From Vibrio bathopelagicus (GTDB lineage Bacteria; Pseudomonadota; Gammaproteobacteria; Enterobacterales; Vibrionaceae): a stretch of DNA of 64,000 bases. Under the pieces are notes generated by a model. The model was given only the letters and a program-made list of their open reading frames with translations, made no database searches and was not told where the DNA came from. A program made the translations under genes and the position numbers. Every line of letters starts with the position of its first letter. The stretch's first letter is position 1. Positions 14,757-32,808 of this stretch are shown here, piece by piece. Location: NCBI RefSeq assembly GCF_014879975.1, contig NZ_CP062501.1, positions 1,488,001 through 1,552,000 of the forward strand. The letters run 5' to 3'.

Positions 14757-15883
14757 AGTCGGACATACCTTTTCTTGGTGTAATCAACAACGAATGCTCC
14801 CTTAATATCGATACTGTTTAAGAACGCTTTCGCTTCATCTAAGTCATTAAAATCACCAATGCAATAGCGCTTCCACAGTCCATGTGTATACGAATAAACA
14901 GAGCCATAATTTGTTTTTAAGTAGTTCAAGAAATCAGAAGGAATCGCCGTATACGTCGCCAACACTTGTACTCGATAAATAGGTTTTGCACCGGGTTTAA
15001 GTTTTCTTGGGTCAAGCACAGAGCCATCGACACTGTGTCTAGAAGCTTGAAGCTCTGCGGTCGTATCCAATTTACTGACTCGTGATGTCGGTGCTACAAA
15101 GCCACCTGAATTAACTTGAGAACCAATAAGCTGCTGTTCCATTTCTATCGTTGACTGTGTCACGGCCTTCTTCCCTTTGCTTTTAGATATTGACCTCATT
15201 AATGCAGATAGCTGCTTGTGGGCCTGCTCATCACTATTCGAGTGTTTTAAAACTTCCAGTGCGATATCCGGTCGCTGAGACTTAACCGAAGATAGAATCA
15301 AGTTAGAGCTAACTCTTTGGTCGTTTGGATTCGACAGGTAAAGGTCATATAAAATGTCCGTCGCACCTAAATAATCAGACTGCATTATTTTTACAACAGC
15401 GATATTGTTTCCGGCTTCTCTGTCTGAGGCTCCTTGCTTTCGACTTTCCTCAAAATGCTCAATAGCTTCGGTAAATCGCTTTTGTTGCGCTAATATTTTT
15501 CCGGTTAAAAGTTGGTATTCATATTCTGCTCCACCTTCATCCCGATACTTTTTTAGCTCTTCTAATGCGTACTCAAAGTTTTTTTTCTGATAGTAGATTC
15601 GAGCATCGGTTAGAATAAACTCAGGATCATCAAGGTCACTTTCGCTATAGGTGCTTCGATATAATTCAGCCGACTTGATATCTTTAAGATCTAGATACAA
15701 ATTAACGAGTTTGACTTTATATACCGAGTCAAATTGGATATTCGCCTTATAAAACTCTATGAGCTTTTGTGAATCACCCGACCCAATAAGCAATTGTTCT
15801 TTGGTATCAAGTTGATTATTAACCGTTGTACAACCAGAGATTAAAACCAACATAATTACGGTTAATATATACTTTCTTATCAC
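14753..15883 (-). CDS. tadD: TadD lipoprotein with TPR repeats and a SPOR-like C-terminus
   Basis: The 376-residue product has a lipoprotein signal ending in LISGC and helical tetratricopeptide-type repeats over about residues 30-225 (YYQKKNFEYALEELKKY, AQQKRFTEAIEHFEES and similar). The last 75 residues, beginning PIYRVQVLATYTAI, resemble a SPOR peptidoglycan-binding domain (Q-V at the first strand, a G-WKRY-IG-F core, and a DEAKAFL helix). TadD normally acts as an outer-membrane-associated pilotin-like factor and usually lacks such a tail. The start overlaps the tadC stop (ATGA). Confidence 0.8.
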   Translation of the reverse strand: MIRKYILTVIMLVLISGCTTVNNQLDTKEQLLIGSGDSQKLIEFYKANIQFDSVYKVKLVNLYLDLKDIKSAELYRSTYSESDLDDPEFILTDARIYYQKKNFEYALEELKKYRDEGGAEYEYQLLTGKILAQQKRFTEAIEHFEESRKQGASDREAGNNIAVVKIMQSDYLGATDILYDLYLSNPNDQRVSSNLILSSVKSQRPDIALEVLKHSNSDEQAHKQLSALMRSISKSKGKKAVTQSTIEMEQQLIGSQVNSGGFVAPTSRVSKLDTTAELQASRHSVDGSVLDPRKLKPGAKPIYRVQVLATYTAIPSDFLNYLKTNYGSVYSYTHGLWKRYCIGDFNDLDEAKAFLNSIDIKGAFVVDYTKKRYVRL

Positions 15884-16745
15884 ATCAACATCCTCAAAAT
15901 ACCAGGGGCAGCAATTAGCACAACAATAGGAACCATGATAAAAGCGATAAGCGGGATTGACATTTTTGCCCCCATCTTTCCAATTCGTTCTTCTAAATCC
16001 ATCATGTTTAGCTCTCGAATATCAGTAGCTAAGGTCGATAATACGGGACCAACAGATGAGCCAATTGGAGGCTCTGCACCATGGTCATTACGAAACTTTG
16101 TGACTCACTGGTTGGTACGAGTTCGTAAAATTCTTCTAATGCCTTTTCAAGGCCCACCAGGCGCGAGCGTTCGACAGTTACTCTCACGACATGAGCAAGG
16201 TTACCGTCTACTGAGTGAAGTTCTTTCGCCAAGTACTCTAAGCTAGACTCAATAGTCATGCCGGTATGGACACAAACATTCATAAGGTCGAGTAAAAAAG
16301 GTAACCTTGAACTGATGTGCTTTATATTGGCTTTGCCTCGAGCAGACACATAGGAATCCGGCGCGATGACAAACGCTAATAAGGCCCCCAATAAATACAG
16401 TAAAGCAAATATTACTTCGGTTTTACCGTTAAAGAAGTCAAGACCAATTAATACTAGGCAAATACTAAAAGGGATTATTTTCAATAAATAGTAAGCATCA
16501 GCAAGGAAGTCATTGTAAAAACCAGCTGCGACTAACTTCCGCTTAGTTTCATGCTTATTGAAACTAAGCCGAGACAAAACAGCCTTAAATAAATCCGTTC
16601 GTTTTTTTTCTTCGCGTGTTGAACCAATTATTTTTCGAGTTTCTATATTTGCTCTCGTGTTATCCCAAAAACGCAAGCAATACGTTGCTAGAACCATAGA
16701 GATAATAAATATGACACTCCAAACAATGGCAGTTTCAAAGTCCAT
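15880..16745 (-). CDS. tadC: TadC inner-membrane platform protein, frameshifted as given
   Basis: TadC is one of the two GspF-type inner-membrane proteins of the Flp pilus machine. The first frame, from the ATG at 16745, runs through SFVMTMVQSLQL and then stops at 16029. Downstream sequence in another frame continues the family without a gap: GSSVGPVLSTLATDIRELN, then ERIGKMGAKMSIPLIAF and a last hydrophobic helix, ending at 15880 and overlapping the tadD ATG. Restoring one G to a GG pair near 16070 joins the halves into a normal product of about 288 residues. The tadB stop and tadC start overlap as TGATG. Confidence 0.75.
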
Positions 16746-17659
16746 CAATTTACACCTCGCAAAATCAGCCAGATGCAAAAGAAACCTAATAATTCGCTCA
16801 CTAGAACGTAATAAAAAATAGGTTGTCCCGCTTCCTCAAACATAACAAAGCTGTAGTTCTCAGGGCTTGTAAACTTCAGGATGATAAGAAAAATCACGGG
16901 CAAACAGGCGATAATTTTGGCAGAAGCTCGCGCTTCTGAGGTCAATGCATTTTTCTTTTTTTCAACGGCTCGAGAATCAAACATAAGTCGATTAATTTTG
17001 TTGATCACATCTTTGAGCTGACCACCCCGAGCTAGGTTAATTCTTATCGTTGAAGCGAAAAAGAAATACTCTAAATAAGGAAAAGTATTGCTGCTACGCT
17101 CAAGAACATCATCAGGATCTTCACCAATAAGTAATCGCTCAGCCATAAGCTTGAACTCTTTGCCCACATCATTATCAAGCTGCTTACCTACGTACTCGAA
17201 CGCATGAATGATGCTTTGACCAGAAGAAATAGCGCCGCTCAAAATGTTCAAAGCGTCTGGAAAGTTAGTTTTGAAACGATCCATTTGTCTTTGCTTTAAC
17301 TTTGTGTAAAAAACAAAGAACAAGATTGGTTCAGCAAGGAGTAAGCAAACGAAATAATCCTGACGCAAGAAGAACTCATTGACCGCATAGACTGCCGATG
17401 CTGTCACAGATGCAAATAGAATTAACTTCAAAGACATATTAGGTTGAAATACTTTGATGGTCTTCTTGTAACTTTTCCTCAACCGGGCTTTGTAGCTCTC
17501 TTCAAACTGTTGTGAATCAATAACAGAACGAACACCTTTAACCCCTTCAAATTCAGCTTCCATCTCAATTAAGCTGCTCAATTTTTTGCTTTGACGAGAG
17601 CGATGGATAAGGAAGTAAAGTAACAAAGCGCTCCATGAAGCAATCAGTATTAAGGTCAT
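16745..17659 (-). CDS. tadB: TadB inner-membrane platform protein
   Basis: The 304-residue product has an N-terminal membrane helix, two central helices (LILFASVTASAVYAV and YFVCLLLAEPILFFVFY), a cytoplasmic GspF-type domain with DALNILSGAISSGQSIIHA, and a C-terminal membrane pair. This is the arrangement of TadB, which pairs with TadC to couple the ATPase TadA to pilus growth. It overlaps tadA by 4 bp (ATGA) and tadC by one base. Confidence 0.85.
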   Translation of the reverse strand: MTLILIASWSALLLYFLIHRSRQSKKLSSLIEMEAEFEGVKGVRSVIDSQQFEESYKARLRKSYKKTIKVFQPNMSLKLILFASVTASAVYAVNEFFLRQDYFVCLLLAEPILFFVFYTKLKQRQMDRFKTNFPDALNILSGAISSGQSIIHAFEYVGKQLDNDVGKEFKLMAERLLIGEDPDDVLERSSNTFPYLEYFFFASTIRINLARGGQLKDVINKINRLMFDSRAVEKKKNALTSEARASAKIIACLPVIFLIILKFTSPENYSFVMFEEAGQPIFYYVLVSELLGFFCIWLILRGVN

Positions 17660-18921
17660 GTAAATATCTCCTTCACTGCTTGTTCTAAACCAAAGAATTT
17701 TGCGCGTTCATAAATCACAGAACGAGTCGATAAACCGGGTGTTCTGAACTCACCTTCCATCTTTCCATCTTTGAAATTTGAAGTAGCTTCATAACGAAAA
17801 ATGTCTTCCATCACCACGCTATCCCCTTCCATCCCGATAATTTCAGAAATGTACATCACCTTGCGGCTACCATCGTGGAGGCGCTTTACTTGAACGATAA
17901 GGTCTACTGCACTAACGATGGTTCTACGTATTGCTGATATCGGCAGACTGGCTGTTGCCATCATTACCATGCTCTCAGTACGAGCAATGGCATCACGAGG
18001 TGTGTTAGCGTGCAATGTTGACATAGATCCGTCATGGCCAGTATTCATGGCTTGAAGCATCTCAAAGGCTTCACCACCACGACACTCACCTACAATGATT
18101 CTGTCGGGACGCATACGAAGGGCATTAATCACAAGGTCACGCGCGGTGATCTCTCCCGTCCCTTCAACGCTGGCTTGTCGAGTTTCAAGCCTAACGATGT
18201 GAGGCTTTTGAAGCTGTAGCTCAGCCGCATCTTCAATGGTAACAATACGTTCCGTGTCACCAATGAACCCAGACAACGCATTCAACAATGTCGTTTTGCC
18301 TGAGCCCGTACCACCAGAGATCAATATGTTGCACTTACAGTGACTGGCTATAGACAATAGCTTTGCCATTTCCACAGACATGGCACCAAACTCAGCTAGA
18401 TTCTCAAGCCTAATTTTTTGTTCTTTGAACTTACGAATAGAGATAGATGTGCCATCTATTGCAAGCGGTGGAATCACAATATTTACACGACTGCCATCCA
18501 TCAAACGAGCATCACAAAGAGGTTTCGATTCATCAATACGACGACCTACATTCGAAGCGATTCGTTTAGCGATGGTGTTCAGTTGCTTTTCATTAACAAA
18601 TTGAATGGGTGACTGTTCGACTTTGCCATTGATTTCGATGAAGATATCGGAAGGCCCATTTATCATAATGTCCGATATGTCATCGTTATCGACCAAAGCT
18701 TGCAGCGGCCCAAGACCTTTCAACTCATCGAGTAATGCTTTGACTAGATCAACGCGCTTAAGAGAGCTGACTTGCAATTGCTTCTTGTCGATCAATATAT
18801 TGACTGAATCTTTAAGCTGTTCTTCTAGCTCTTGATTACTGATTTCAACAAGCGTCGCGGCGTCCAAAGCATCGAAGATTTCATCTCGAAGCTGGATGTA
18901 AATTTCTTTTAATTGATTCAT
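17656..18921 (-). CDS. tadA: TadA/CpaF pilus assembly ATPase
   Basis: The 421-residue product is a type II/IV secretion ATPase. The Walker A sequence [16 protein letters not shown] is at about residues 200-214, followed by the Asp-box segment [10 protein letters not shown], the Walker B region [16 protein letters not shown] and the His-box [11 protein letters not shown]. The N-terminal domain has the CpaF signature [10 protein letters not shown]. TadA powers Flp pilus assembly, and in some species retraction. It overlaps both its neighbours by 4 bp (ATGA), so the tad genes are tightly coupled. Confidence 0.92.
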
Positions 18922-20111
18922 TTTCTAAACAAACTGAAACGTGATTTGGTTTTAATTTTCTTGCCTGTTAACGTGGCAACCATACTCAAAACGGCAGTCG
19001 AGGACTTAGATTTAAGCAACTCATTAATACCCTGCTGCACCACTATTTTTTCAAGTGACGGCTCATACATAAAATCAATGCTATCTTTGGCTTTGATCCT
19101 CTCTTTTGCGCTTGCGAGCGTTACCATGAAGTCTTTCGCTGGTCTATTCAGGTTGAAAATAACCTGGTGTTCAGACTTACCGATCTTCTTCTTCAACGAG
19201 TTGTATGAACGCAATGAAGAAACCGAAGGTTCGCAAACAATAAAGATGCGGTGATACTTATCAGATAACTCCTGATCGTGCATCTCTTCGTAGCAAGACA
19301 GCGGCGCTGAATCGATAATAAAGTTATACTGATCAATTAGTTGACTCGAAAGGTTGTACAGCGTAGACGCGTGATCAGAAAGACAGGCAACATTCTTCTC
19401 TAGAACCAAATAATCAAGTTTCTCTTTAACGCCATGCACATAGGTTTTTGCTATCGCACTGTCGATATCGATCTGATTTAAGTCGATACTGTTGTGCTTG
19501 GCTTTCAAACCTTTTACACCAATATAAATGTCGCTGTTTAGCGCTCCTGAATCATGATCCACCAGGAGTGTCTTTAGGTTTGCTTGCTCTGCTAAGGAAT
19601 GTGCTAAAACAGAACTTACGCAAGATACTCCAATGCCGCCTTTGGTTCCTAACACTAATATACGTTTAGCTACTCGCGTTTTTTTAACGGTGCTTTCACC
19701 TTCTTGCGTCGCTTTTAATGCCGCGAGTAACGCATCAAGTTCAGAATCCCACAAGACATAAGTAGCACCCAGAGAATGCACTTGGTTACGCAGTTTTATA
19801 GAATCAACATCGCAGAGAACAAGCAAAGATATGTTCACATCTAGGCGAATCGAAATCTCGGATACTTGCTCAATAACGTTGGACGCGCTGCGAAGATCAA
19901 GTACAACATGATTAAGCTTGATGTTTGACTGATTCCAAACACCATCTAAATCAATATCAGTCACTTCAAGTGGTTTAGGAAAGCCTTCAATCGCGTATAG
20001 ATCATTAATCGATTCAGTTAAGGCGCTATCGTCTGAAACAATGAGATCGGTAGCCTCAACTGTCGACTTCATTTTCGAAGACGAATTACGAAACAAGATA
20101 TCCAAGTCCAT
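18918..20111 (-). CDS. tadZ: TadZ/CpaE-like localization ATPase with degenerate Walker A
   Basis: The 397-residue product has an N-terminal receiver-like domain of about 130 residues (LLVLCDVDSIKLRNQVHSLGA) and a C-terminal MinD/ParA-type domain starting near residue 140. The deviant Walker A reads GTKGGIGVSCVSS, so the usual KGGxGKT lysine and threonine after the glycine are missing, which is frequent in TadZ proteins. TadZ places the Tad machine at the cell pole. The gene starts 2 bp after the lipoprotein gene's stop and overlaps tadA. Confidence 0.82.
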   Translation of the reverse strand: MDLDILFRNSSSKMKSTVEATDLIVSDDSALTESINDLYAIEGFPKPLEVTDIDLDGVWNQSNIKLNHVVLDLRSASNVIEQVSEISIRLDVNISLLVLCDVDSIKLRNQVHSLGATYVLWDSELDALLAALKATQEGESTVKKTRVAKRILVLGTKGGIGVSCVSSVLAHSLAEQANLKTLLVDHDSGALNSDIYIGVKGLKAKHNSIDLNQIDIDSAIAKTYVHGVKEKLDYLVLEKNVACLSDHASTLYNLSSQLIDQYNFIIDSAPLSCYEEMHDQELSDKYHRIFIVCEPSVSSLRSYNSLKKKIGKSEHQVIFNLNRPAKDFMVTLASAKERIKAKDSIDFMYEPSLEKIVVQQGINELLKSKSSTAVLSMVATLTGKKIKTKSRFSLFRK

Positions 20112-20113
20112 AG

Positions 20114-20575
20114 CTATTTCGCCTTCTTAATTGGATTGACCAAGCTAATATTACGATTGTGCTCGACACTACAGCCAAATTGATAATCTTCTCTTTTAGA
20201 GAACACCATCACTCCACAGTCACTGCTTTTAATTCGGACATATCGACCTATGATTAGGATGTTTTTTTCTTGGTCATGATCGGCAAGCTCGACTTTATAT
20301 CTGTCTTTAGAGATAGACTCTAACTTAAATCGATCGCTTAACTTCGCGACAAATTCACTCGCATCAGGCTTATATCTAACCAAAAACGTCGCCTTTGCCT
20401 CTCTTACGTTGAGATCTCGAATAAAAGCCACAGAACGAGGCATCGAATCTTCATCAGTCGTCATGTCAAATTCAAAGCGTTCCTCTAATTGTTCAATAAC
20501 ACTAGAGTTACTGGTATCAAGATGAGTACAAGCAGAAGTGAAAAAAGCTATTAAAGTAATAACGAGCCATCTCAT
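20114..20575 (-). CDS. Tad-operon lipoprotein at the rcpB/cpaD position
   Basis: The 153-residue product has a lipoprotein signal peptide ending FFTSAC. The mature part is a small mixed domain with two further cysteines (DCGVMVFSKREDYQFGC). It lies between the secretin rcpA and tadZ, where other Tad loci encode RcpB or CpaD, but I do not see enough sequence similarity to name it. Its start overlaps the rcpA stop by one base (TAATG). It probably helps the RcpA secretin in the outer membrane. Confidence 0.7.
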   Translation of the reverse strand: MRWLVITLIAFFTSACTHLDTSNSSVIEQLEERFEFDMTTDEDSMPRSVAFIRDLNVREAKATFLVRYKPDASEFVAKLSDRFKLESISKDRYKVELADHDQEKNILIIGRYVRIKSSDCGVMVFSKREDYQFGCSVEHNRNISLVNPIKKAK

Positions 20576-21900
20576 TAGTTGAACCCTCCTTGGTTAATCG
20601 TGTCTTCCAACTCAGGTTCATCGAGATCTGAGAGGTCTATTCTTAGCAATCGTTCTAGGTCACTGGTACGTCTAAAGCTTGGTAACTTAACTTGTTCTTG
20701 CTCGACGGGATCAACGAGATTGACAGTCGCAACAATGATTAATTCCGTTTTAGAGCGATTCGTAGAAGTGTGGCTAAATAGAGCTCCAAGGATTGGGATA
20801 TCCCCCAGAATTGGTATCTTGGTTAACGATTCACGCTCTTCTGACGTAAGTAGCCCCGCCAGTACAAAGCTTTGCCCATCTTTTAAATGAACTGTTGTTT
20901 GAGCTCGTCGAGTCCGCAAAGAAGGCACAGAAATTAGACCTGTCGTAGTTTTGTTTGATTCATCAATCGAACTGACTTCAGGAATAAGAGTCAACCGAAT
21001 GTTCTCTGTATCCGTGACCTTCGCAACCATGGCCAACTTAACTCCATACTCTTTGTAAGAAATGGTAATCCCGTCTTCATCTCGAACAGCGATTGGTATC
21101 TCGCCACCTGCTAGGAAACTGGCCTGCTCACCCGAAATAACAGAAAGGTTGGGCTCGGCCAATACCCGCCCGATTTTGTCATCACCACTTGCGGAGATAA
21201 CAGAAACGATATCTTGAGCCGTAAAATCAAGGAGCTTATTCACAAAAGTCCCTGGCTCCCCACTGTCACTGTAAGTCACACCTAATTCGGTAAGGAAAGA
21301 GCTCGACACTTCCGCCACAGTCAGCTTTACGTTGATCTGTTCGGTGGTCAAAACTTTCAGGTTATTAATAACTTGGTCATAGTTGTACTGTGCCGTGTAC
21401 TCTAGCTCGTCTAAAGCTTCACCATCAGCATCCTTTAGCTCGTAAGCCGTTCTACGGCGATCTTTCTTCAACATTTCGCCGACAAGTCGATTGATCTTTT
21501 GTTTAATTTCTTCGCTACCGACAATACCGTCTAAGACCACTTGGTCACCGACATTGGAAACCATAACGCTTTCATCAGGGAATCGAGCGATGAGCGTTTG
21601 CTTAAGAAGTCTTAAGCTTTGATTGACAACCAATTCCGCATTGTAAATTTCATTTCCACCGCGATCATAAACAATCACAGAGGTAGTACCCTGGCCAACG
21701 CCGTAAACTACAACCTTGTTTTCATCGATAATTTTGTAGTCAGCTATTTCTTGATTCGCCACAAATACCGTTGATATCTGTCGCTTCAAATTAATGGTTT
21801 TCGCAGCGCCTTGATCCAAGTTCATTAATTCTGATGCGAGTAATGGACAAGAAAGAATCCCGCACAATAGCAAGGCTATATTTTTCTTCTTCAAAGTCAT
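20575..21900 (-). CDS. rcpA: RcpA/CpaC outer-membrane secretin
   Basis: The 441-residue product has a signal peptide (NIALLLCGILSCPLLA), an N-terminal pilus/BON-type domain (VFVANQEIADYKIIDENKVV; VLDGIVGSEE), and a C-terminal secretin domain with LAEPNLSVISGEQASFLAGG, VPSLRTRRAQTTVHLKDGQ and ILGDIPILGALFS. It forms the outer-membrane channel of the Flp pilus. The ATG at 21900 is chosen for its AAGGA site; it lies one base beyond the rcpC stop. Confidence 0.9.
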   Translation of the reverse strand: MTLKKKNIALLLCGILSCPLLASELMNLDQGAAKTINLKRQISTVFVANQEIADYKIIDENKVVVYGVGQGTTSVIVYDRGGNEIYNAELVVNQSLRLLKQTLIARFPDESVMVSNVGDQVVLDGIVGSEEIKQKINRLVGEMLKKDRRRTAYELKDADGEALDELEYTAQYNYDQVINNLKVLTTEQINVKLTVAEVSSSFLTELGVTYSDSGEPGTFVNKLLDFTAQDIVSVISASGDDKIGRVLAEPNLSVISGEQASFLAGGEIPIAVRDEDGITISYKEYGVKLAMVAKVTDTENIRLTLIPEVSSIDESNKTTTGLISVPSLRTRRAQTTVHLKDGQSFVLAGLLTSEERESLTKIPILGDIPILGALFSHTSTNRSKTELIIVATVNLVDPVEQEQVKLPSFRRTSDLERLLRIDLSDLDEPELEDTINQGGFN

Positions 21901-21901
21901 G

Positions 21902-22678
21902 TTATTCCTTACCACGTAATTCTCTGACACCGAACTGAGTTTCTAAAAGGTCACTACTGCGGATAGATAAATAGCGATTCTCGATTTCAGATGGAATGAT
22001 ATTCACATCACCGATTTTTTGAGCCATTTCAAGTTTCAAAACGCTGCGCATATTTAATGCAATAACTAAACTGTATTTTTTATCTTCGGCATCCTCTGAA
22101 TCAGTATCTTCACTGCCTTTTATTACCTGCAGCACGCGAGCTCCACTAATAATCACTCGGCTAACGAGATCACCGATGTCACCATATCCATTCTCAACTA
22201 GATTTGATTTTGATGAGGTTGTGGAAACGAAGCTCACTTTATCACCAGGGGTAAGCGTTGCGGTTTGTACGACTCCGATACCAGTTACTTCATAAAAATA
22301 AGGTAATTCACCGTCATTTAATGACAGGTACATATAATCTCGGTCACCCGGGTTAGAGATCATATCTTGTGTTATATAGGTACCTGCGCTGATGTCGTCT
22401 TTAAAAAGAGCACCAGGTTCAACAATAAGATCGTCTTCTAACGTGTAGTAGTAACCATCTAAATCAGATATATGGACAAACTTCTTATCATAAAAATTAG
22501 GAGTTAACGGTTGAGAACGTTTTATCGCTTTCTGAGTGACTAAAATACTAACCTTAGGTTCTTCTTTCTGCTGAACTTCCTGTGGTTCTTCATCAGATGA
22601 CATATAGTTCATATTGATATAAATCAATGTAGAGAAAATAGAAAAAGCGACAAGAAGGAGAATGATAATTCTGTTCAT
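21902..22678 (-). CDS. rcpC: RcpC/CpaB pilus assembly protein
   Basis: The 258-residue product has one N-terminal membrane anchor (IIILLLVAFSIFSTLIYI) and an SAF-type domain (VTQKAIKRSQPLTPNFYD, then AGTYITQDMI) typical of CpaB/RcpC. Such proteins help or modulate the secretin in the periplasm. It is separated from flp by a hairpin that may reduce read-through. Confidence 0.85.
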   Translation of the reverse strand: MNRIIILLLVAFSIFSTLIYINMNYMSSDEEPQEVQQKEEPKVSILVTQKAIKRSQPLTPNFYDKKFVHISDLDGYYYTLEDDLIVEPGALFKDDISAGTYITQDMISNPGDRDYMYLSLNDGELPYFYEVTGIGVVQTATLTPGDKVSFVSTTSSKSNLVENGYGDIGDLVSRVIISGARVLQVIKGSEDTDSEDAEDKKYSLVIALNMRSVLKLEMAQKIGDVNIIPSEIENRYLSIRSSDLLETQFGVRELRGKE

Positions 22679-22732: not shown

Positions 22733-22945
22733 TTATTTGCCTGTAGTAGCTGTAGTCAAATTGGTGGTCACTTTAGTTAATGCACCAGTGATAGCATTTT
22801 TAAGCGCATCAGTTTGAAATGCCGCTAATACTAGAGCCGACATTACAACAGCAATAATTGCATATTCCACAGCAGTAACACCGCGTACATCATCTTCGAA
22901 CTTCATTTTTAGTTCAGCTAGTTTTGCTAAAGTTTTGTAATACAT
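22733..22945 (-). CDS. flp: Flp major prepilin
   Basis: The 70-residue product is a Flp/Fap-type pilin: a basic leader ending in RG at residues 21-22, then VTAVEYAIIAVVMSALVLA, where cleavage after Gly-22 gives Glu at +5 and Tyr at +6, the Flp signature. The tail is Thr-rich. AGGATTATT precedes the ATG. It is the first gene of the long minus-strand Tad operon. Confidence 0.93.
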   Translation of the reverse strand: MYYKTLAKLAELKMKFEDDVRGVTAVEYAIIAVVMSALVLAAFQTDALKNAITGALTKVTTNLTTATTGK

Positions 22946-23154: not shown

Positions 23155-23613
23155 ATGAATGTAGATATATTATTTTATGCCACTTTAATTTTTGTAAACT
23201 TTTTAATCTTAGTATGTGTGTGTTTTTTCGATGGAAAGTATAGAAAAATACCAAACAATCTCAGTAAGACTGCTTTAATATTTAGCATTTTCGTCGCACT
23301 GTATAACGGTTATTTAATGACTTCGCTTTCCATTGCTATTTTATGCTTCTTTGTATTTTTTATTCTTTGGTATGTAAAGGTTATAGGTGCTGGAGATGTG
23401 AAGTTAATCAGTGCCCTAATCATTAGCATACAACCCGACTTTGCAATAATAACACTGATTTTTATAGGTTTTTGGGGGGGGGTGTTAGTCTCTATTATGT
23501 ACATAATAGGAAAAGCAGCAGGTTTTGATAGCTACAAAAAAGGCATTCCTTACGGAATACCTATTGCTTTGAGTTGCTTTATCTTTAGCACAATATCAAT
23601 ATTGTCAAACTGA
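23155..23613 (+). CDS. tadV: TadV/CpaA prepilin peptidase with a nine-G tract
   Basis: The 152-residue membrane protein is an A24-family aspartic prepilin peptidase. It has the two catalytic-Asp regions FFDGKYRKIPN and GAGDVKL and about four to five membrane helices. It should cut Flp, TadE and TadF leaders. It is divergent from the flp operon rather than inside it, and its stop directly abuts the LysR gene's end. At 23474-23482 the coding sequence contains an unbroken run of nine G residues (codons for Trp-Gly-Gly-Val). This is striking in an AT-rich gene because GGG glycine codons are rare in Vibrio. Confidence 0.85.
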   Translation: MNVDILFYATLIFVNFLILVCVCFFDGKYRKIPNNLSKTALIFSIFVALYNGYLMTSLSIAILCFFVFFILWYVKVIGAGDVKLISALIISIQPDFAIITLIFIGFWGGVLVSIMYIIGKAAGFDSYKKGIPYGIPIALSCFIFSTISILSN

Positions 23614-28062: not shown

Positions 28063-28330
28063 TAGGATAATCTCGTTAGTAGAATTTCTCAGAAAGAGAT
28101 AATTCATTTATTAAATGAAACGAGACCTTATCAATGAGGCATTATATTAACCAATTAACTTTCTAACTAAACCTATAAGTAATATTTATAAGTTTAAGAA
28201 TATAAAATTACTTATAGGCGAATAAATTATTATAAATAACAAAAGATAGGTAATAGGTAACTCTATCTTTTATTCGAGTAACTTTTAATTAATCCGCGCA
28301 CCTATTAAACGATGAATCTTTCCACAAAAA

Positions 28331-29318
28331 CTATTGAGATGCTTGTTTCATCTGCTCATCTAAGTTAAGCACCGTCAAAGCATTGCTTACGCTGGTTGCA
28401 ATCACGTCAACCACACCCGTTCTTAGTGCACCTAACAGAGCTAATGGCTTACTGTTCTCGGCAGCGATGGCAATTACCTCGGCGATAGGACGGAACTCTT
28501 CCAAGCCTAAGCCGATGACTCGGTCACTCATTACTGTGTTTGCCGCTTTACCGTGCACGTCGAAAAGTCATAACCAGCAAAGTCACCGACTACACCTTGT
28601 AGTAAACGAGATTGAACAACCTCTCCCGCCGTAAACCAACCTAGGTCGACCATATAGCTGTTTTCACTCATATCACCAATACCCACTAAAGCAACATCCG
28701 CCTTACGGGCAAGATCAGTGTTTGCTTAACGGTGCTGTTTTCCATAAAAGCGGTTTTTGTGCTTTGTTCTCTGCATAAGCAGGCGCATATAAAGTTTCTG
28801 ATGAACCGCCGTACTTCTTAGCTAGCTGTCTACATATATGGTCGGCATTAAACATACCCCTCTTGGGTGTATACCACCGATGCCACATACAAACTTACAG
28901 TCACGTGGCGTGATCACACCAGTATGGTGAGCAACCGACGATACGTTTCGACCTTGGCCGACCGTCACTACCATTCCGTTTTTAAGGTACTCGTTAGATA
29001 GTTCGACACCAGGCCTGCAACCTGTAAACGCTGCTTATCTTCATTTGGCTGATCAAGAGCGACTAATGCTCGCTTCACACCAAACCTTTCAATAAGACGC
29101 TGTTCAATTTTGGCACTGAACACAGGGTGGTATTTCACGGTGATCTCAACAATCCCTTCATCACGGGCTTGTTTGAGCATTCGACCAACCTTTGCACGAG
29201 AGATAGAGAACTTTTTGGAGATCTCTTCTTGAGTCGCACCATCTTGATAGTAAGCAACGGCGACTTCGGTTAGGAGATCAGTGTTTTCTTCGGAAACATC
29301 TTGGATATTGTTACTCAT
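28331..29318 (-). pseudogene. SorC-type sugar-binding transcriptional regulator, multiply frameshifted
   Basis: The N-terminal part (29318 to about 29000) has a helix-turn-helix of the SorC/DeoR-like sugar regulators (EEISKKFSISRAKVGRMLKQA). The sugar-binding domain is spread over several frames: VVTVGQGRNVSSVAHHTGVI, GGSSETLYAPAYAE, ALVGIGDMSENSYMVDLGW and a last open part HGKAANTVMSDRVIGLGLEE ending at 28331. At least five single-base additions are needed to join them, near 29000, 28860, 28750, 28720 and 28565. The gene lies upstream of tal and tkt, so its natural job was probably control by a phosphorylated sugar. As given it cannot make the full protein. Confidence 0.75.
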
Positions 29319-29777
29319 ATACCACTCAACCAATATTTAACAATTATTTTACCTGCTGTGCTTCCTAATATAGGAGAACTCAGTAAGTGATACATAAGCT
29401 TACACCCTGAACATATGTAACAACAAGGAACATTTGCTCACTATGATAACCTTGATTTAGCTGTTGATTAATTAGACTCAATTGAACCGTTAAACGTTTG
29501 CTTGTATACCCCATGATTACTAGAGCGAAATATATTTGACTGAAGTCACCATACAGCACTATTTACCGTTGACTTTGGGGCTGAATCGGATAAATATGGC
29601 TACATCATTTACTCATCGAGCAGACAAATGTTCTGTGCAAATGTTCGTTCGGAGAAAAATTTAAATTAATGTAAGTTTGACTCACTGGTACAACCATGAG
29701 GAACTTCATTAGTTCGCTTGCAAATGCCCACACCTCTCCCATTAAAGGGGTGTTCTGCGATACATAGGATGATCAAA
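29319..29777. promoter_or_regulatory. Region between the SorC-type regulator and tal
   Basis: This divergent gap of about 460 bp should hold the promoters of both the regulator and tal. A short inverted repeat (ACACC with GGTGT, about 29730-29753) lies 25 bp before the tal start. I see no clear operator or ORF. Confidence 0.35.
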
Positions 29778-30727
29778 ATGAGCAATAAATTAGAGCAACT
29801 TCGTAAACTAACAACTGTTGTAGCTGACACTGGCGATATCGAAGCTATCAGCAAGTACACTCCTGAAGATGCAACAACTAACCCATCTCTAATTCTTAAA
29901 GCTGCTCAAATTGCTGAGTACGCACCTCTAATCGATGCTTCTATCGAATACGCTAAAGCGCAAAGTGGTGACAAAGCACAACAAGTTCAAGACACTTGTG
30001 ACATGCTTAACGTGAACATCGGTAAAGAAATCCTTAATGTTGTACCTGGCCGCATCTCTACTGAAGTAGATGCTCGTCTTTCTTACGACATGGAAGGCAG
30101 CGTTGCTAAAGCTCGTCAACTTATCAAAATGTACAACGACGCTGGCATCACTAACGACCGCATCCTTATCAAACTGGCTTCTACTTGGGAAGGTATCCGT
30201 GCTGCTGAAATCCTGAGAAAGAAGGCATCAACTGTAACCTAACGCTTCTATTCTCTTTCGCTCAAGCACGTGCTTGTGCTGAAGCTGGCGTATTCCTTAT
30301 CTCTCCTTTCGTTGGTCGCATCATGGACTGGTACAAAGCGAAAGAAGGTCGCGATTTCGAAGCTTCAGAAGATCCAGGCGTAATCTCTGTTTCAGACATC
30401 TACAACTACTACAAAGAGCACGGTTACAAGACTGTTGTTATGGGCGCAAGCTTCCGTAACATCGGCGAGATCCTTGAACTTGCAGGCTGTGACCGTCTAA
30501 CTATCGCTCCTCAACTTCTAGCAGACCTAGAAGCAGCTGAAGGCGAAGTAGTAGAGAAGCTAATCGACTCTAACGGTACTAAAGAGCGTCCTGCTGCAAT
30601 GACTCACGCTGAGTTCCTATGGGATCACAACCAAGACCCAATGGCTGTAGAGAAGCTAGCTGAAGGCATCCGCAACTTCGCCGTTGACCAAGGCAAACTA
30701 GAAGACATGATCGCAGCTAAGCTGTAA
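29778..30727 (+). CDS. tal: Transaldolase, frameshifted as given
   Basis: Transaldolase moves a dihydroxyacetone unit between sedoheptulose 7-phosphate and glyceraldehyde 3-phosphate in the pentose phosphate pathway. The first frame starts at 29778 ([20 protein letters not shown]) and includes the active-site lysine in [12 protein letters not shown], then leaves frame at about 30214. The rest ([20 protein letters not shown] to the stop at 30727) is in another frame. One added G (CTGAG to CTGGAG) restores [20 protein letters not shown] and a protein of about 316 residues, the usual TalB length. All other family motifs are intact. Confidence 0.85.
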
Positions 30728-30743
30728 TCACTACCTAATAAAT

Positions 30744-30770
30744 AAGAGGAACGAATTTCGTTCCTCTTTT
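30744..30770 (+). terminator. Rho-independent terminator after tal
   Basis: AAGAGGAACGAA and TTCGTTCCTCTT form a near-palindromic stem followed by T residues. It separates tal from tkt, which therefore may have its own promoter. Confidence 0.8.
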
Positions 30771-30817
30771 ACATCTATCCACGAATTTTTAATTTCGAAT
30801 CAATTTTGGAAGCAATT

Positions 30818-32808
30818 ATGAACCGCAAACATTTAGCTAACGCTATTCGTGCTCTAAGCATGGACGGTGTACAACAAGCAAACTCTGGTCACCCAGGCGC
30901 TCCTATGGGCATGGCTGATATCGCTGAAGTACTTTGGCGCTCTCACCTGAACCATAACCCATCAAATCCAGAGTGGGCTGACCGCGACCGTTTTATCCTG
31001 TCTAACGGCCACGGCTCTATGCTGATTTACTCTCTGCTTCACCTAGCAGGTTACGAGCTTTCAATTGAAGATCTTAAGAACTTCCGTCAACTGCACTCTA
31101 AGACTCCAGGTCACCCAGAGTACGGCTACGCACCTGGTATCGAGACGACGACTGGTCCTCTAGGTCAAGGCATCACCAACGCTGTTGGTATGGCGATGGC
31201 TGAGAAAGCTCTTGCGGCACAGTTCAACAAAGAAGGCCACGACATCGTAGACCACTACACTTATGCATTCATGGGTGATGGCTGTCTGATGGAAGGTATT
31301 TCTCACGAAGCATGTTCTCTAGCAGGTACGCTAGGTCTTGGTAAGCTGGTTGCTTTCTGGGATGACAACGGCATCTCTATCGATGGCGAAGTTGAAGGTT
31401 GGTTCTCTGACGATACACCTAAGCGTTTTGAAGCTTACGGCTGGCACGTAATTCCAGCTGTTGATGGTCACGATGCTGATGCTATCAATGCGGCTATCGA
31501 AGCAGCTAAAGCGGATCCTCGTCCGACTCTAATCTGTACTAAAACGGTAATCGGCTTTGGCTCTCCAAACAAAGCAGGTACGCACGACTGTCACGGTGCA
31601 CCATTAGGCGCTGACGAAATCGCAGCAACTCGTAAGCAACTAGGTTGGGAGCACGGTCCTTTTGAAATTCCGTCGGAAGTTTACTCAGAGTGGGATGCGA
31701 AAGAAGCAGGCGCAGCTAAGGAAGCAGCGTGGAACGAGAAACTTGCAGCTTATGAAGCAGCATACCCTGAGCTGGCAGCTGAATTCAAACGCCGCGTAAA
31801 CGGTGATCTTCCTGCTGAATGGGAAGAGAAAGCATCGGCAATCATCGCTGATCTTCAAGCTAACCCAGCAAACATCGCATCACGTAAAGCATCTCAAAAT
31901 GCTCTAGAAGCGTTTGGTGCTATGCTACCTGAATTCATGGGCGGCTCTGCTGACCTTGCGCCTTCTAACCTGACTATGTGGTCTGGTTCTAAGTCGCTTG
32001 AAGCGAACGACTTCTCAGGTAACTACATCCATTACGGTGTACGTGAATTCGGTATGACGGCAATCATGAACGGTATCGCTCTGCACGGTGGTTTCGTACC
32101 ATACGGCGCAACGTTCCTAATGTTCATGGAATACGCTCGTAACGCTATGCGTATGGCTGCTCTGATGAAAACTCAGAACATCCAAGTTTACACGCACGAT
32201 TCTATTGGTCTTGGCGAAGATGGTCCTACTCACCAACCGGTTGAGCAGATCGCTTCTCTACGTCTGACTCCAAACATGAGCACATGGCGTCCATGTGACC
32301 AAGTTGAGTCTGCTGTTGCTTGAAACTGGCAATCGAACGCAAAGATGGTCCTTCTGCGCTTATCTTCTCTCGTCAGAACCTTGCACAACAAGATCGTGAC
32401 GCTGAGCAAGTGGCAAACATCGCTAAGGGTGGTTACATCCTGAAAGATTGTGAAGGCAAACCAGAGCTTATCCTTATCGCGACTGGTTCTGAAGTTGAGC
32501 TAGCGGTTAGCGCTGCTGCTGAACTAACAGCTGAAGGCAAGAAAGTACGCGTAGTATCTATGCCTGCAACTGACGCATTCGACAAGCAAGACGCTGAATA
32601 CCGTGAGTCTGTACTTCCATCTGACGTTACAGCACGTATCGCAGTAGAAGCTGGCATCGCTGACTTCTGGTACAAGTACGTTGGTTTCGGTGGCAAGATC
32701 ATCGGTATGACAACGTTCGGCGAATCTGCACCAGCAGGCGAGCTGTTCAAGATGTTCGGTTTCACTACTGAAAACGTAGTAAACACAGCAAAAGAACTTC
32801 TAGCTTAA
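30818..32808 (+). CDS. tkt: Transketolase, frameshifted as given
   Basis: Transketolase moves two-carbon units in the non-oxidative pentose phosphate pathway and uses thiamine diphosphate. The first frame (ATG at 30818) shows [23 protein letters not shown] and the thiamine-binding [13 protein letters not shown] motif, and runs to a stop at 32321. The second frame ([18 protein letters not shown] onward) continues at once to 32808. One G missing from a TGG Trp codon at about 32322 explains the break. The repaired product is about 663 residues, equal to E. coli TktA. Codon use is strongly biased, as expected for a highly expressed gene. Confidence 0.87.

Follow-up and report, generated by a model that had tools for sequence, protein, structure and literature searches.

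The tadV gene of Vibrio bathopelagicus carries nine consecutive G residues, and this tract is most likely an ordinary, private and mildly slippage-prone run. The tract had initially been annotated, within a window of 64,000 nucleotides (NZ_CP062501.1, positions 1,488,001 to 1,552,000), as a slipped-strand contingency locus that could phase-vary the Tad pilus. Comparison with relatives, genome-wide counts of homopolymers and computed frameshift products suggest instead that it is probably a lineage-private homopolymer built up through ordinary substitutions at a conserved Gly-Gly pair, and not an evolved phase-variation switch.

The nine-G tract and its gene

The tract is located on the forward strand within a gene for a prepilin peptidase, with the following features:

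23155..23613, + strand: A24 prepilin peptidase of the tadV type; 152 aa, full length in this sequence
23386..23397, + strand: GxGD (GAGD) codons, residues 78-81, upstream of the tract; G78, G80 and D81 invariant
23474..23482, + strand: nine-G homopolymer, tadV codons 107-110, from TGG through the first G of GTG
23539..23568, + strand: conserved C-terminal KGIPYGIPIA, residues 129-138; G130, P132 and P136 invariant

A longer, GTG-started form of tadV from 23110 is possible. The product matched Pfam family PF01478 (Peptidase_A24) with an E value of 1.6e-12 and 48.2 bits (gathering cut-off 26.5). In an alignment with 25 homologues, D26 was nearly invariant and G78-x-G80-D81 invariant; we take D26 and the GxGD aspartate to be the catalytic pair of TadV, and GxGD to be its active site. 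The family score, the two aspartates including GxGD, and the adjacency of the gene to a Flp pilin gene (PF04964) and the Tad machine all place the product within TadV, the other Tad names being our own assumption. Solved structures gave no sequence match to profile A1. In its family match, its GxGD motif and its position beside flp, the gene resembles those of ordinary TadV/CpaA peptidases of PF01478. The peptidase is thus ordinary, and the private G run alone distinguishes the gene in the window.

The frame at the tract reads TTT TGG GGG GGG GTG (F106 W107 G108 G109 V110), which directly confirms nine G residues inside tadV, in frame and after the GxGD codons. The tract therefore has the length expected of a homopolymeric contingency locus (about 8 or more G or C in coding sequence). 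The gene is also AT-rich, as first noted, with a GC content of 31.8% vs 42.6% for the window. GGG had been described as a rare glycine codon in Vibrio. Its share of glycine codons was 11.6% in the ORFs of the window and 9.7% across 400 kb of the other contig, so that it is uncommon here, yet not extremely rare.

Consequences of a one-base slip

A change of one unit breaks both frame and product. Computed frames gave 110 aa after loss of one G and 124 aa after gain of one G, compared to 152 aa normally, in agreement with the predicted truncation. Both products lack the KGIPYGIPIA motif together with the invariant residues G130, P132, P136 and S140, and a hydropathy scan indicated that either frameshift costs the protein its final membrane segment as well as part of the segment bearing the tract. 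Loss of tadV function after such a slip is very likely.

An effect on piliation is less sure. The gene cluster around tadV contains:

22733..22945, - strand: flp pilin, divergent from tadV, likely substrate; PF04964, E 6.8e-11
16745..21930, - strand: presumably tadB, tadA, tadZ, a small lipoprotein gene and rcpA-like genes, judged by sequence and order
15883..16778, - strand: presumably tadC, judged by position; frameshifted near 16065, within 16029-16778, as given, with its C-terminal part lost; intact 299-aa counterpart in V. apostichopi

A pilus-off phenotype is less certain than loss of tadV function because a second complete-looking Tad locus (C1:9647-21174; its gene names are likewise presumed) contains a flp-like gene and a tadV of its own, the latter 31% identical to tadV of the window. 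Given the second tadV, the proposal that a slip would stop the processing of Flp and the other substrates is an inference. The sequence had also been described as being in the on phase. This holds for tadV, which is open, but cannot be claimed for the whole pilus because the neighbouring tadC carries a frameshift in the given sequence.

The tract in relatives

A protein search of 227 genomes of the genus yielded 151 with a match at an E value of 0.001 or better, the own genome included and many of the matches distant. The DNA at the site was compared for 39 loci, with one genome per species. The site motif did not fit two loci (L037 and L042, not tabulated) and was misplaced onto the GxGD site in L046, and the site is perhaps misplaced too in L003, a distant paralogue. 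The resulting codon table consisted of 23 rows of 456 bases, other lengths being excluded; subtraction of the window's row and six same-record rows left 16 non-redundant full-length orthologues (63-93% identity). An internal TGA interrupts the aligned frame of the tadV orthologue at locus L035 (G212), which has only 128 open codons and is perhaps a broken copy.

The tract is not kept by selection in these relatives. The longest G run at the site was 2-6 in 16/16 orthologues, six G residues being present in V. splendidus MOR1 and SWAT-3. Codon 107 was never TGG and codon 108 was GGA or GGT, never GGG, while codon 109 was GGG, GGA, GGT or GGC and codon 110 took nine forms. The two nearest species, presumably V. 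lentus 10N.261.46.F8 (G014) and V. apostichopi (G015), with 93% protein identity, read TTT TTT GGT GGA GGG at the site and carried no G run longer than three in the gene. The nearest protein (P0001, 98% identity) reads GFFGGV, with F at position 107, which would allow a run of at most 7 G. A DNA counterpart of this protein at 98% was not found among 7 loci from a contig scan, nor was there a match to a plasmid or viral contig. Interruption in close relatives, which the initial annotation itself had named as evidence against a contingency locus, is what these comparisons found. In the alignment with 25 homologues, G108 and G109 were invariant, W107 occurred in none of the homologues and in the window alone, and Val110 was common to the window and P0001.

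These patterns are consistent with an origin of the tract by substitution. The conserved Gly-Gly pair predisposes the site and drift accounts for the rest. Invariance of the pair would impose GGN GGN at codons 108 and 109, and the third positions together with codons 107 and 110 would drift, so that G runs of 2-6 would form and be lost again; variation at the third positions and in the flanking codons lets such runs lengthen and shorten. In the lineage of the window, Val110, GGG GGG and a TGG at codon 107 would then have joined into nine G. Once formed, the run would be expected to slip more than its surroundings and, as a by-product, to generate tadV-null cells at a modestly elevated rate.

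One observation at the site counts against this explanation. Between V. apostichopi and the window, tadV differed at 23 positions, five of them within ten bases at the tract, and the densest 12 bases gave permutation p values of 0.023 vs V. apostichopi and 0.040 vs V. lentus (26 differences). The tract site has therefore changed faster than its gene. The cluster of differences may have arisen by local slippage, or in a complex mutation of the T/G junction.

Homopolymeric runs across the genome

The observed GGGGGGGG count of the window was matched or exceeded in 2 of 100 dinucleotide shuffles, so that within this stretch taken by itself the count is above chance. The genome (5.67 Mb, two contigs) contains seven G/C runs of at least 8, namely one of 13, four of 9 and two of 8. 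Markov models of orders 2-4 predicted 7.6-9.5 runs of at least 8, and order 5 predicted 20.2; for runs of at least 9, five were seen vs 1.25-1.63 (orders 2-4) and 4.65 (order 5), all of these expectations being rough, as they were extrapolated from 864 kb that were in part chosen for carrying runs. The total of runs of at least 8 fits composition, and runs of at least 9 are somewhat in excess. A tendency of long runs to lengthen could account for this excess. The excess weighs against an origin by substitution, as does the length distribution, with four runs of 9 vs two of 8, the pattern that growth by slippage would yield.

At least one G9 was present in 202/223 genomes of the genus, the own genome included. 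A G9 somewhere in a Vibrio genome is thus expected, and only in hindsight does its position within a pilus gene stand out. Inspected by eye, 4/7 runs lay outside likely genes, one was in tadV and two were in AraC-type ORFs, one run at the very start of its ORF and the other, of 8 C, within. With seven runs of at least 8 in 5.67 Mb, the genome is not enriched in tracts in surface genes. The 8-C run is interrupted in V. apostichopi and was the sole one of the other six runs with a covering alignment.

The remaining nine-base runs occupy possible promoter or leader positions: L004 (C1:248935) between WecA-like and GpmI-like ORFs, L013 (C2:320101) between two EAL-like ORFs, and L015 (C2:398896) where an AraC-type ORF begins, these ORF names being our assumption. 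The longest run of the genome, 13 G (L007, C2:308240-308252), is likely intergenic, about 840 bases before a LysR-like ORF as judged by eye, and had no match in the V. apostichopi DNA compared. Runs of eight T occur in tadD and tadC coding DNA (15579-15586 and 16602-16609). The cluster of V. apostichopi has two A8 runs with a spacing of 1024 vs 1023, so that the T8 runs seem shared, unlike the G9; with 42 in 864 kb, A/T runs of this length are frequent in the genome. A mutator explanation was dropped: the mutS and mutL frames are open (864 and 749 codons), and the strain is therefore not obviously a mutator.

Comparison with known phase-variable tracts

It is unlikely that the tract is a genuine contingency locus, in which reversible slippage of the G run toggles tadV, Flp processing and Tad piliation in this lineage. 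The nine G residues are in frame, both shifted frames stop early (110 and 124 aa) and the invariant C-terminal residues are lost on a slip, all of which speaks for such a locus. The genus also offers precedents. Passages of PMC5854121 describe G/C tracts of 7-11 bases in tcpC, tcpH, mshQ and other genes, found particularly in mutS-deleted lines, and give 1e-4 as the frequency of tcpH frameshifts in rabbits (Carroll et al. 1997). Slippage at the tadV tract is plausible because such tracts do slip in Vibrio according to these passages, and the tract may be slippage-prone in this strain; documented slippage of G/C runs in pilus-related Vibrio genes in the same passages is a further point against an origin by substitution. 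Like the tadV tract, the poly-G of V. cholerae tcpH is a coding G/C run in a pilus-related system in which a slip shifts the frame (PMC5854121, in part). An animal model yielded variants of tcpH at a frequency of 1e-4, whereas the tadV tract lies in a prepilin peptidase gene and is absent in the relatives examined.

A second likeness concerns the poly-A tracts of V. cholerae O1 wbeL and manA, O-antigen genes with A8 and A9 tracts which, as described in sections of PMC3441752, are coding homopolymers of 8-9 bases in which a slip truncates the product. There, the wbeL tract was kept in 37/37 O1 strains and that of manA in all but two, which had a shortened tract, and the variants were selected by phage. 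The tadV tract, in contrast, is not conserved and no variant of it is known. Tad pili aid attachment and biofilm formation of V. vulnificus, as stated in parts of PMC5913241, which also counts in favour of a contingency locus.

Several findings argue against a contingency locus. The tract is absent from the nearest species and from the nearest protein. Apart from it, no G/C run of at least 7 was found in either of the two Tad loci, in the cluster of V. apostichopi or in 29 loci of relatives (with flanks of about 1.5 kb on each side of the match). Neither a slip-type truncated tadV nor a length variant appeared among the 25 homologues, a weak negative since the database was clustered at 90%. 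Finally, the second Tad locus has its own tadV.

Reliability of the sequence

Another reading, to which we give little credence, is that sequencing or assembly went wrong at a T/G homopolymer junction and produced either the length of nine G or the change from T to G in codon 107. The nearest protein has F107, as would be expected if the tryptophan were an artefact, and one-base deletions relative to V. apostichopi in four window genes suggest that local quality may be poor. A split test flagged 4/44 V. apostichopi genes in the window: one-base deletions split tadC, transaldolase and transketolase, and the fourth case was an upstream extension of flp. A regulator gene, presumably of the SorC/DeoR type, had five one-base deletions by alignment, was unflagged by the split test and is intact in V. 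apostichopi as a 335-aa ORF. Together, regulator, transaldolase and transketolase occupy 28326-32808, where seven one-base deletions fall within about 4 kb, all of them losses in the window vs V. apostichopi.

The reverse test flagged 1/45 ORFs of the window, a mechanical ORF that runs antisense to the regulator. In controls, none of 207 genes on C1 (400 kb) and none of 57 on C2 (240 kb) was split in the own genome (G000), and 1/56 of its genes in the C2 stretch was split in V. apostichopi. In 224 kb around the window, 5/133 genes were flagged, namely the same four and a fifth, an overlapping match that lies beyond the window. The cluster of breaks reflects either real decay or a poor patch of sequence. 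A genome-wide indel error was dropped as an explanation, given that 0/207 C1 genes were split.

Against an error at the tract itself, the run is in frame, tadV aligned to that of V. apostichopi without gaps, and no coding indel was found between 16066 and 28200 in this comparison. In addition, Val110 is shared with the nearest protein, so that some of the difference from V. apostichopi is real.

Remaining alternatives and implications

A recently gained tract might represent a new and still unfixed phase switch, that is, an emerging contingency locus near its birth and confined to this lineage, in which a conserved Gly-Gly motif in the membrane would have become a site of slippage; we regard this as decidedly improbable. 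RNA polymerase might also slip within the nine G, so that unchanged DNA would yield full and truncated TadV side by side, but this is very improbable. A nine-base run is long enough in principle, but the run is missing from the 16 orthologues.

Titles and abstract openings in the literature revealed no phase variation of Tad or tadV and no tract switch in a prepilin peptidase; if length variants of the tadV tract existed in reads, they would constitute the first Tad peptidase switch known to us. G runs in coding sequence are easily spotted and tempting as switches. A private run on a constrained Gly-Gly pair, which is how the tadV tract is best explained, is a useful null model for such switch calls.
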